Shown here one piece after another: positions 1 to 10,824 of a stretch of 15,410 nucleotides of DNA (its first letter is position 1; the number at the start of each line of letters is the position of its first letter). Origin of the DNA: an uncultured Bacilli bacterium. Its GTDB lineage: Bacteria > Bacillota_I > Bacilli_A > RF39 > UBA660. The position numbers were made by a program, and so were the translations under genes. The notes under the pieces were generated by a model, which made no database searches, was not told the origin of the DNA, and saw only the letters and a list, made by a program, of their open reading frames with translations. The stretch is from positions 1-15,410 of the forward strand of contig CANQIR010000006.1 in assembly GCA_947624095.1 (NCBI GenBank). Reading direction: 5' to 3'.

Positions 1-611
1 CTTGGAATTCAAGTGGGAGTAATAATTGGAGTACAGCAACATTACAGACGGCATTAAATGGCGATTATTATAATAGATCTAATAGTTATTCATCTAATGG
101 CTTAAATACAACTGCCCAAAGTATGGTAGCGAACGTAGTGTGGACATTAGGAGGAACAGCAAATTACAATTCAGCAAGTAATGGACTAGCAAGTCATTTC
201 TATGGATATGAAAGAGGAGATACAGTATATTCTGGAAATCCAAAGGCCTTTGTAGGCCACGTCGGACTTATGTTCCCAAGTGATTATGGCTATGCCACCG
301 GAGGTGGAACTACATATAACAGAACAGCTTGTTTAGCAAAAGAAATGTATAGCTGGGATAGCGGTAGTTATAAAACAGATTGTGCAAGAGGAAGTTGGTT
401 ATATAATTCTAGTAATATACAATGGACTTTGTCTCCTCGTTCCGATGTCTCCAACCTTGTGTTCAGTGTGCTCGGCAACGGCTATGTCAGCGACGGCAGC
501 GCTTCCGGTGCGCGTGGGGTCCGGCCGGTCGTTTATCTGAAATCGAGTGTACAGATTGCAGAAGATGGAATGGATGGATCTAGTGGTAAACCTTATAATT
601 TGAGTTTATAA
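1..611 (+). CDS. 3' part of a large surface-type protein with a probable hypervariable C-terminal domain
   Basis: The reading frame is open from the left edge (first whole codon at 3) to the TAA at 609-611, giving 202 visible residues; the start lies outside the window. The fragment is rich in Asn, Ser, Tyr and Gly, has no transmembrane segment or sorting signal, and ends in a short tail after the motif GVRPVVYLKS. Conserved-looking blocks are GLMFPSDYGYATGGG (about residues 89-103), LYNSSNIQWTLSP, and the GVRP block (about 172-175). I recognise this as the C-terminal part of a repeated gut-Firmicutes protein family, similar to DUF6273-like or C-type-lectin-like target domains; the exact family is from memory. 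Codons 144-172 have a base composition quite unlike the rest (see the separate entry). The protein is probably exported and used for binding, but no function can be shown here. Confidence 0.75.
   Translation, partial: WNSSGSNNWSTATLQTALNGDYYNRSNSYSSNGLNTTAQSMVANVVWTLGGTANYNSASNGLASHFYGYERGDTVYSGNPKAFVGHVGLMFPSDYGYATGGGTTYNRTACLAKEMYSWDSGSYKTDCARGSWLYNSSNIQWTLSPRSDVSNLVFSVLGNGYVSDGSASGARGVRPVVYLKSSVQIAEDGMDGSSGKPYNLSL
431..545 (+). other. Candidate variable region of a diversity-generating retroelement
   Basis: By hand count 431-530 is 65% GC with 10 adenines per 100 bases, while 321-420 just upstream is 33% GC with 38 adenines. In the 28 codons from 432 to 515, 25 end in C or T and the other three (GTG, GTG, GCG) contain no adenine. 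That is what is left when AAY codons of a template are randomised at their adenines while adenine-free codons stay fixed. The patch lies near the C-terminus and ends in an adenine-poor GVRP block containing the palindrome CCGGCCGG (521-528), the place where a mutagenic-homology end would be expected. No template repeat and no reverse transcriptase occur in this window, so the assignment is inference. A recent recombination tract from a GC-rich donor is the main alternative. Confidence 0.5.
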
Positions 612-615
612 AGAT

Positions 616-644
616 AAAACGTGAGGAATTATTTCTCACGTTTT
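616..644. terminator. Bidirectional rho-independent terminator
   Basis: A perfect 10-bp inverted repeat AAAACGTGAG / CTCACGTTTT (616-625 and 635-644) with a 9-nt loop lies between two convergent genes. A-runs on one side and T-runs on the other let it work in both directions. The stop codon of the minus-strand repressor gene lies in the loop. Confidence 0.75.
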
Positions 645-961
645 CTTATAGCTTCACTGTACCAGATTACATCATCTTTTTTGGATTCATTTAACATAAT
701 GAAGTTGTTTAGAATCTTATAAGTTTTAGGATTTAGAGTCTTAATATTTAGATCTTGGATTGGAGTATCATTTTCGGTACGACCGAGTAAATAATCAATA
801 GAAGTATTAAGGTAATCAGCTAGTTTAATTAAAGTATCTGTATTGGGATAAGATTTACCCGATTCATAAGCACTAATTGACTCTTGTTTGATGTCAAGGT
901 CAGTAGCTAATTTTGATTGAGTTATATTTCTTTTTTGACGAATTAGTTTAAGATTTTTCAA
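629..961 (-). CDS. Xre/Cro-family HTH transcriptional regulator
   Basis: This 110-residue protein has an N-terminal HTH_3 domain (about residues 4-60) with the pattern LIRQKRNITQSKLA, a recognition-helix region IKQESISAYESGKSYP, and the tail ADYLNTSIDYLLGRTE typical of phage-like and chromosomal Xre repressors. The remaining 45 residues are a short helical tail with no recognisable domain. The start is a TTG at 961, chosen because a strong GAGGTG ribosome binding site lies five bases upstream and the sequence begins MKNLKLIRQKR as in the family. It has its own promoter and is divergent from the radical SAM gene, so it may regulate itself and that gene. The target is unknown. No other phage genes are visible nearby. 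Confidence 0.88.
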   Translation of the reverse strand: MKNLKLIRQKRNITQSKLATDLDIKQESISAYESGKSYPNTDTLIKLADYLNTSIDYLLGRTENDTPIQDLNIKTLNPKTYKILNNFIMLNESKKDDVIWYSEAIRKREK

Positions 962-992
962 GGTATCACCTCACTATACAATTTATAATTAT

Positions 993-1021
993 ATTATAAT
1001 ATAATAAAAAATAATTTGCAA
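993..1021 (-). promoter_or_regulatory. Promoter of the Xre regulator gene
   Basis: Reading the minus strand, TTGCAA (1021-1016) and TATAAT (998-993) are separated by 17 bases, a near-consensus housekeeping promoter. The transcript would start about 25-30 bases upstream of the TTG start codon. Confidence 0.6.
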
Positions 1022-1037
1022 CTATGTAAAGTTTAGA

Positions 1038-1066
1038 TTGATATAAGAACATATGTATGGTATTAT
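1038..1066 (+). promoter_or_regulatory. Promoter of the radical SAM gene
   Basis: TTGATA (1038-1043), 17-base spacer, TATTAT (1061-1066). The expected transcription start at about 1072-1075 leaves a 5' leader of only about ten bases, just enough for the weak ribosome binding site GGTGAG (1073-1078) before the ATG at 1084. The spacer holds GAACATATGTAT (1047-1058), a possible operator. Confidence 0.6.
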
Positions 1067-1083
1067 ATTAATGGTGAGTCGAA

Positions 1084-1890
1084 ATGGACTTTAAGAAAAT
1101 ATATATAGAAGTAACTAATGTATGTAATTTAAATTGTGAATTTTGTATTGGTAATAAAAGAGAGAAAAGATTTATAGAAATGGATGATTTTAAAATAATA
1201 CTTAATAAGATACAGGGATTTACTAAATATATTTATTTACATATAATGGGAGAACCTTTATTACATCCAATGATTAATGAATTAATTGATGAAGCAGCAC
1301 AGTCTTATTTTGTAAATATTACTACTAATGGTTATTTTATAGAAAAAATTAAGAAGAATAAAAATATTAGACAAGTAAATATATCGTTACATGATTTTGA
1401 TATAAAAGTGGGGAAGAGTTTAGATGAATATTTAGATAGTATCTTGATAACTAGTGGTGAGTTAGTAAAAAATGGGACGATTGTATCTTATCGAATGTGG
1501 ACAAGAAGTAAGTATTTGGATAAGATAATTCAGAAATTGAATGAGCATTATGGAACAAGAATAGATGGAGAGATATCTACTAAGTTAAGTGATAAAGTAT
1601 TTTATGAGGTAGAGAATGAGTTTATATGGCCTTCTTTAGAAAATAATTATTATAATGAAGATGGTACTTGTTATGGAACTAGACATCATATGGGAATATT
1701 AGTTGATGGAACAGTAATACCTTGTTGTTTAGATAGTGCGGGGACGATTAATTTGGGGAATATTTACAAAAGGGAATTTAGTGATATAATAATGAGCGAT
1801 AAATTTAAAAAAATGCAAGAAGGATTTTTAAATAATAAGAAAATAGAAGAATTATGTAAGCATTGTAATTTTTGTGATTCGAGAAGATGA
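1084..1890 (+). CDS. Radical SAM protein with C-terminal SPASM-like cysteine cluster
   Basis: The 268-residue product carries the radical SAM signature CNLNCEFC (C14, C18, C21), which binds the 4Fe-4S cluster that cleaves S-adenosylmethionine. It also has the family's GEPLLHP motif (about 57-63) and the strand motif VNITTNGY. The C-terminal third has more cysteines: C196, C214-C215 within VIPCCLDSAG, and C258, C261, C264 near the end, an arrangement like a SPASM or twitch domain that binds auxiliary clusters. Such proteins modify peptides, proteins or small molecules; the substrate cannot be read from the sequence. No precursor-peptide-sized gene with a ribosome binding site is visible in the flanking gaps. 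It stops with TGA and is divergent from an Xre regulator. The start ATG is fixed by the promoter just upstream. No downstream gene appears co-transcribed for a related purpose. Confidence 0.87.
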   Translation: MDFKKIYIEVTNVCNLNCEFCIGNKREKRFIEMDDFKIILNKIQGFTKYIYLHIMGEPLLHPMINELIDEAAQSYFVNITTNGYFIEKIKKNKNIRQVNISLHDFDIKVGKSLDEYLDSILITSGELVKNGTIVSYRMWTRSKYLDKIIQKLNEHYGTRIDGEISTKLSDKVFYEVENEFIWPSLENNYYNEDGTCYGTRHHMGILVDGTVIPCCLDSAGTINLGNIYKREFSDIIMSDKFKKMQEGFLNNKKIEELCKHCNFCDSRR

Positions 1891-9561: not shown

Positions 9562-10824
9562 GTGAAAAAACTACAAAAAATAAGTGCAGGAGTACTTGGT
9601 TTATTGCTAAGCTTTGGCATTACTGTAAATCCAGTTGCAGCATTGACAAAGTTTGAATTTGATGATTGGAATACTTTGGATGGATATTATGGAACTAAAG
9701 ATAAAGTTGATGATGTAGTAACTAAGTTAGTTGGACAAGATAATACGCCAGCTTTTGCTGGACAACTTGTCGGTGCTTTTACTAAAGCAAGTGAAGGAGC
9801 TTTATTAAAAGATGGCATTACTGAAGAATTATATATCGAACTAGATCCCGCTAAATATATGCAAGGAGATATATTTGAAGCAACTGTATCTTTAAATGCA
9901 ACTGCGAAAGCCGATGAACAATTGACTGAAAAGGCTGTTACGACAACAATGACTGGAGAAAATGAATTTACAATTACTTCTAATGGTTGGTCTTCTAAAA
10001 CTTTTGCAACAGTAACTGAAAGTGGTATTTATACTTATAGATGGCATTATTTCTTAAATGGAGATGTTGCTTATATTAATTTCTCTTTATTACATGGAGA
10101 TGAAGTAATTGGTACTTCAGGTGATGTAAAAGTTGAAGAGGTTACAGCTGAAAACAAAGATACTGTATCAGTAAGATCTGTATGGTTCTGTAATATTAAA
10201 ACTCGTGATGGCGTATATGTTCATTCAAGATTACCACAAACTACTGTTGATGTAGATGAAGATTCTACAGTAACTGTTGTTGATGATAGTGTTTCTAGTG
10301 TTTTCAAAGATTCTTTAGTTAATTTAGAAGAATTTGAAGATATTGGCGATACTGATGTAGCTGTTAAATTAGAAGCTAATGAAAAAACAGATGTAACTGA
10401 AGGAACTAAAACTTCATTTGAAAAAGTTGCTGGTAATGGTAAAATTGCTGAGTATTTAGATATTGAAGTATTAGTTACAGCTGGTACTCAATCATATAAT
10501 TTACACGAATTAGTTAAACCAGTAAGTCTTACGGTTGCTGTGCCACTTAATATTCCTGCTGTAGCAGAGGGTTATACAAGAACATATTATGTTTTAAGAG
10601 AACATAATGGTGTAGTTGAAAAACTTTCTACAAAATTATCAGAAGATGGTAAGAATTTAACATTTGCTACTGATAAGTTCTCAACATATGCATTAGCTTA
10701 TGAAGATGTTAAAGAAGTAGATAATCCATTAACAGCAGATGCAATTGTTATGTATGTAGCAGTTGGTGTAATAAGCTTAGGAGCTTTAGCTTTAGGTGTT
10801 AAGGTTTTAAAGAAAAATAACTAA
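9562..10824 (+). CDS. Cell-wall-anchored surface protein with NPLTAD sorting signal
   Basis: The 420-residue protein starts at a GTG nine bases after AAAGGAGA. It has a signal peptide (MKKLQKISAGVLGLLLSFG, then a probable cleavage after NPVAA near residue 27) and a C-terminal sorting signal: NPLTAD (388-393), a hydrophobic helix (about 395-413) and a short basic tail with KK. NPxT(N/G/A) motifs are typical of class B sortase substrates, and the sortase gene is divergent next door. The N-terminal half (about 30-190) is an acidic domain I do not recognise. The C-terminal half ends in KLSEDGKNLTFATDKFSTYALAY, a beta-rich stalk-domain pattern common in gut Firmicutes wall proteins. There are no long repeats. 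It is probably monocistronic, ending at a hairpin terminator. The ligand or role is unknown. Confidence 0.88.
   Translation: MKKLQKISAGVLGLLLSFGITVNPVAALTKFEFDDWNTLDGYYGTKDKVDDVVTKLVGQDNTPAFAGQLVGAFTKASEGALLKDGITEELYIELDPAKYMQGDIFEATVSLNATAKADEQLTEKAVTTTMTGENEFTITSNGWSSKTFATVTESGIYTYRWHYFLNGDVAYINFSLLHGDEVIGTSGDVKVEEVTAENKDTVSVRSVWFCNIKTRDGVYVHSRLPQTTVDVDEDSTVTVVDDSVSSVFKDSLVNLEEFEDIGDTDVAVKLEANEKTDVTEGTKTSFEKVAGNGKIAEYLDIEVLVTAGTQSYNLHELVKPVSLTVAVPLNIPAVAEGYTRTYYVLREHNGVVEKLSTKLSEDGKNLTFATDKFSTYALAYEDVKEVDNPLTADAIVMYVAVGVISLGALALGVKVLKKNN

Follow-up and report, generated by a model that had tools for sequence, protein, structure and literature searches.

What produces a stretch of roughly 100 bases, rich in GC and poor in adenine, towards the end of a gene in an AT-rich genome? 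The question is raised by the first few hundred bases of the window (the whole stretch analysed, 15,410 nucleotides), which is contig C6 of assembly G000, the source genome (927 kb in 127 contigs, 77% complete) of a small uncultured bacterium probably of animal-gut origin. We identify window 429-541 with high confidence as a variable region (VR) of a diversity-generating retroelement (DGR), and assign a probability of about 96% to the fuller reading that this is a cellular DGR working in trans, in which one cassette would serve at least six targets elsewhere in the genome. Among the matches listed from open-licence papers, no title or abstract dealt with the lineage of this bacterium. The features on which the argument turns are as follows, in window coordinates.

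3..611, + strand: DGR target gene, 3' part (202 codons); the frame is open from the first bases, with the start of the gene beyond the contig edge
429..541, + strand: DGR variable region (VR), with six copies in G000; it includes the 28-codon tract at 432-515
516..541, + strand: 3' block GGGGTCCGGCCGGTCGTTTATCTGAA, the same in 6/6 VRs and likely to be the site for initiation of mutagenic homing (IMH)
542..611, + strand: short C-terminal tail outside the VR, where the copies diverge, at third codon positions too
616..644, + strand: inverted repeat of 29 bases (14-base arms, 1-base gap), directly after the stop codon

Composition of the tract

The footprint described in the initial annotation, codons that end in C or T or else lack adenine, is real: 25 of the 28 codons in 432-515 end in C or T and the remaining three are GTG, GTG and GCG, an excess with P = 2e-5 (for at least 25 of 28) given a rate of 51% in the rest of frame 3-611. 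These codons have 60.7% GC and 11.9% A, while the 99 bases of 429-527 reach 64% GC and 10% A, reproducing the earlier estimate of about 65% and 10% over some 100 bp. The GC peak of the window falls in the same place, the best 84 bases starting at 447 with 66.7% GC; 84-base stretches starting past base 621 never exceed 52.4%. The whole window has 31.2% GC, and the target gene outside the tract 36.7%, a recomputed value that replaces the 33% first given. The tract indeed sits just before a short C-terminal tail, which places the VR near the C terminus. Base composition alone was enough to recognise this VR: within an AT-rich gene, the tract stands out as rich in GC, poor in adenine and made up of codons with a final C or T. 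The same footprint could be used to find orphan VRs in other fragmented genomes.

The inverted repeat after the stop codon is a possible terminator with no known tie to the DGR; a terminator scan of window 400-1100 listed none, and no strong hairpin was found after the VR. Directly after the target gene, on the opposite strand, lies a gene (629-961, - strand) whose product we take from its translation to be a helix-turn-helix type regulator.

Copies in the source genome

A DNA search of G000 with the tract recovered six VR copies on six contigs, all six ending in the same 26 bases; a reversed-pattern control for this 3' block returned none in G000. Five of the six copies sit no more than about 470 bases from a contig end, as expected if the assembler breaks at repeats. 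When five of the six were compared codon by codon (one single-codon gap; the C7 copy, 6 bases longer, was left out), 17 of the 28 columns varied at the first codon position, 18 at the second and 2 at the third (Fisher P 6e-7). Ten codons were constant and every one is adenine-free (TCT, CCT, TCC, TCC, GTG, TTC, GTG, GGC, GTC, GCT), among them those at the positions already called constant from the window sequence. This is the pattern that AAY codons randomised at their adenines would leave: such codons in a template could give rise to many residues and adenine-free codons would stay fixed, so that the protein scaffold would be kept and about 18 positions would vary.

The C7 copy has two extra codons; the common pattern fits mainly its 3' half, and its 5' half fits a template like that of G002, a genome of the same genus described below. 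We considered a second G000 template for this copy and set it aside, since partial replacement from one template, with a 3' half of the common pattern and a 5' half still G002-like, would be the simpler account. As a DNA query, the C7 VR matched 3 of 12 relatives (G001, G002 and G035), which indicates that the VRs have diverged too far at the DNA level to be counted over a wider set. A plasmid collection held no match for the VR. Contig C46 (L011:185-320 and 448-2988) has the host mutS immediately downstream of a DGR target gene.

A reverse transcriptase cassette on contig C48

The initial annotation had proposed looking for a reverse transcriptase (RT) in the full genome, and there is one: an RVT_1 match in G000 (E 3e-19) lies on contig C48, where an RT frame with GLPIGNMTSQ and YMDD follows two small frames. 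The SQ within the first motif we take to be a DGR-type mark, and the best PDB match by sequence is 8ub7 (E 5.5e-23), presumably the RT of a Bordetella phage DGR. Other RT kinds (group II, DRT) also match this protein in PADLOC and NCBIfam profiles; the RVT_1 match, the two motifs and the rank of 8ub7 at the top of the PDB together point to a DGR-type RT. Both small frames resemble DGR accessory proteins. The first, which we call MSL, matches MutS_I (MutS domain I) above the Pfam cut-off (E 2e-5), and the second is Avd-like by PHROGs ('Avd protein of DGR', E 2e-14), with further matches to NCBIfam DivGenRetAVD (E 7e-11) and Pfam bAvd (E 3e-8) that both fall under their cut-offs.

L001:142-519 (contig C48): msl, MutS domain I-like accessory gene (MutS_I match)

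The RT, avd and msl frames are all open, and their GC contents are 22%, 21% and 20%. None of the six G000 VRs lies on this contig, whose upstream side is unseen. MSL is already known as a DGR accessory, and by its genes the G000 system would join an established class of DGRs.

The template repeat of a sister genome

A template copy beside the RT, the other thing the initial annotation had proposed to look for, is absent from the G000 assembly and complete in a relative. Contig C48 begins where the template repeat (TR) should be, its first bases resembling the sequence just downstream of the TR in G002, so that the lack of a visible TR in G000 is attributable to a contig break at that very place; by analogy with known DGRs, G000 would carry a TR of its own. 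In G002, whose RT is 86% identical to that of C48, the TR is a 99-base sequence, PVPNSSNANNVFNVNNSGNVNNNNANNTNGVRP, with 32 adenines, located about 850 bp upstream of the RT, with a frame on either side of it and itself part of no target gene. Its end, GGGGTCCGGCCG, has 12 of the 26 bases of the VR 3' block in common, after which it diverges. In DGRs the IMH* at the TR differs from the IMH at the VR; 26 bases identical in all six G000 VRs, with a TR that departs from them after 12, make 516..541 the likely IMH.

We compared eight G002 VRs with this TR in gap-free alignment. Where the TR has an adenine, 150 of 256 cells are mismatched, against 31 of 536 where it has another base (P 1e-59). This count leaves aside C33, which has an extra codon and by eye looks close, as well as the diverged copies on C55, C51, C22 and C4, a second short match on C51, and four places with 3 mismatches (C6, a second on C22, and two on C35). 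G002, a 1.2 Mb genome, thus holds nine close VRs, C33 included, and at least four diverged ones. The bases found at template adenines are A 106, G 85, T 50 and C 15 of 256, a non-uniform spectrum. Adenine-specific differences in relatives, which the initial annotation had named as a check, are in the main what G002 displays; in G000 the same property was tested indirectly, by codon positions in 5/6 VRs. Taken with the RT and Avd-like gene of G000, these two patterns bear out the VR first proposed from the window sequence.

The composition of the tract follows from the same template. The G002 TR has 46% GC; were its 32 adenines randomised uniformly, 62.6% GC and 8.1% A would be expected. The tract is GC-rich because adenines have been replaced and the fixed positions of the template lean towards G and C. 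An imported GC-rich cassette, suggested in the initial annotation, is therefore unnecessary, and the msl, avd and RT genes themselves are at 20-22% GC. In G002 we also observed an open frame of 572 codons (contig C53, L050; 5' end open) with two VRs about 1 kb apart, the first of them internal and not C-terminal.

Related loci

When GTDB contigs were scanned, ten relatives of the RT came up; nine bear the title uncultured Bacilli and the tenth uncultured Tenericutes. Rabbit samples are suggested by eight of their isolate names, which start with 'Lapin', and one of the ten, L092, has the same TR as the G002 contig. Of 60 genomes searched, 20 (G000 included) hold an RT relative, and not every such relative is a proven DGR. 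Of six further RT loci tested for TR/VR pairs (L099 and L100, with TR-like tracts at contig starts, were outside this test), five have a local VR, placed in the frame before the TR and with its start 250-400 bases away, and L097 has no local VR. Adenine mismatches between TR and local VR in the five are 23/33, 20/34, 13/23, 10/22 and 18/33, and non-adenine mismatches, in the same order, 0/64, 0/59, 0/58, 0/59 and 2/63; in L093, L094, L095 and L096, the pairs differ at template adenines only.

Proposed mechanism and alternatives

On this evidence we propose, by analogy with known DGRs, a cassette ordered TR - msl - avd - RT at one genome site. The RT, with Avd, would copy template RNA and misread its adenines, and the mutated cDNA would then replace the VRs of at least six remote target genes, anchored at the common 3' block (IMH).

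Might such copies have arisen with no retroelement at all, as a paralogous family diversified in an exposed loop by ordinary mutation, selection and gene conversion? The G000 copies are indeed paralogues that differ outside the VR too, and positive selection can focus changes at codon positions 1 and 2. What makes this barely credible is that third positions are nearly fixed and ten codons fully conserved, that changes in G002 track the adenines of a separate template outside the target genes, and that four related loci have TR/VR pairs with differences at template adenines only. A DGR carried by a prophage and directed at a phage tail protein would be in keeping with the many phage-borne DGRs reported in the available part of PMC8144416, and 108 of 50,697 phage records do hold an RT relative. 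All 108, however, are below 60% identical, IMG/VR scans with the target alignment and with the RT confirmed no relative, and the six targets are spread over six contigs. Furthermore, the genes that flank the target in the window are presumably housekeeping genes, as named from their translations, and we regard a prophage origin as highly improbable.

The cellular DGR could still be a relic, its VRs genuine and the system no longer working in this strain. No TR is visible in the G000 assembly, and in G001, another member of the genus, two VR-like copies are accompanied by no more than a partial match to the RT, located at the end of a contig. Set against this are the open frames of all three cassette genes and the contig break that explains the missing TR; the shared 3' block of 6/6 copies and their almost unchanged third positions moreover suggest recent copying from one template. 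We judge a relic unlikely and hold with moderate confidence, from the behaviour of known DGRs, that the G000 system would be active at present.

MSL and a possible tie to mismatch repair

MSL matches at E 1e-5 occur in 63 of 193 family genomes, ten of them in frames of at least 459 aa. Six of these long frames were fetched (L125-L130; L126 in part), and in 6/6 MSL is fused behind an RT with an SQ-type motif and YMDD. A template-like AAY tract was found in one of the six stretches (L128), so that it is the RT by which the other five are placed among DGRs. Among the matches listed, the accessible portions of the DGR and MSL literature make no mention of an RT-MSL fusion. A second small frame also recurs near cassettes (L093:6052-6321, L094:4001-4288, L092:176-451 and similar), placed after the RT or, in G002, before the TR. 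In a profile comparison it was related to MSL with 63% probability, and the G002 frame matches the MSL profile at E 5e-7; it is probably a second MSL-like protein. The L126 fusion, read by eye, seemingly contains two MSL-like units.

In the F-x-E motif of MutS, Phe stacks on the mismatch and Glu is its partner in mismatch binding. MSL keeps the Phe in 41/41 distinct places and the Glu in 1/41 (44 rows by profile score, less one without the motif and less L152 and L157, which repeat L125 and L127), while the full-length MutS of the host reads GDFYEIF; MutS_V is found in 37 of 40 genomes searched. A tentative reading, to which we give low confidence, is that MSL recognises mismatches in order to counter their repair, shielding the cDNA/VR heteroduplex from host MutS. 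MSL would ride on the RT, sometimes as a fusion, and cover the mismatches of the heteroduplex, whereby the host MutS that 37 of 40 genomes keep would not erase new variants. If true, such shielding would allow a single template to supply many distant targets. The weak point of this reading is that only one of the six fusion loci (L128) has a template-like tract. According to the accessible text of PMC12875486, mutS was deleted in a reconstituted Bordetella DGR to preserve DGR substitutions, and an 18-base insertion reporter was without MutS effect; the former makes an anti-repair role of MSL testable, and the RT-MSL fusions offer a concrete handle on the function of this MutS-like DGR partner.

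Relation to known systems

The DGR of Bordetella phage BPP-1 is the prototype, with RT and Avd as neighbours, adenine-only differences between TR and VR, and IMH and IMH* at their 3' ends. With the TR as seen in G002, the system described here resembles it in these respects; it differs in being cellular, in having several targets off the RT contig and in its extra msl gene. The 15 phage RTs among the matches listed are 27-32% identical; the five Bordetella records fall outside those rows.

A parallel in organisation is Treponema denticola, where complete DGR strains have one TR and one RT with two to seven dispersed targets, according to the available excerpts of PMC4891356. As in these strains, one TR and RT would serve dispersed, surface-type target proteins. 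The accessory in the excerpted T. denticola system is an HRDC protein, whereas here there are avd and a MutS domain I-like gene; furthermore, nine close VRs occur in the 1.2 Mb of G002, and none was found in the 483 bases seen on the upstream side of the TR, the place that a local VR occupies in five other loci. An MSL accessory protein with PF01624 is described for DGRs in the accessible part of PMC10053308, and the cassette shares with those systems its MutS domain I-like protein; unlike them, as far as that part goes, it has relatives with a recurring second MSL-like small frame and, at six loci, an RT-MSL fusion. Trichodesmium erythraeum has 18 loci with TR/VR homology and two DGRs (PMC8867640, in excerpt), and so resembles G002 in its many remote targets but differs in having two DGRs, against one TR found in G002. 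DGR targets with several VRs are likewise known (excerpts of PMC6642488 and PMC10907252). One survey required a repeat at most 1 kb from the RT and states, in the portion available, that DGRs with remote targets would be missed (PMC8144416).

Target proteins and neighbouring genes

The paralogue on C7, 507 codons long, has a hydrophobic export-type segment at its start, and it and several G002 targets begin with a segment like KKVVILGILAVCLSVSIGIGFSYA. We take this segment to resemble SipW-dependent export signals; no profile bore this out. In known DGRs the VR sits in a C-type lectin fold near the C terminus; here the position agrees, and such a fold would be conjectural. The window target has a weak C-terminal match to DUF6273 (residues 139-181, E 0.005, below the cut-off), AlphaFold models of six targets had a mean pLDDT of 32.3, and a PDB profile search with the target alignment returned one chance-level match (E 0.12) and no solved relative. 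An export-type start together with a VR near the C terminus makes it likely that the targets are a set of exposed binding proteins, the binding function being that of known DGR targets. Elsewhere in the window, a sortase (PF04203; 8396-9430, - strand) adjoins a protein that begins with an export-type segment and has a hydrophobic one at its C terminus (9562-10824, + strand), possibly an anchor enzyme and its cell-wall protein.
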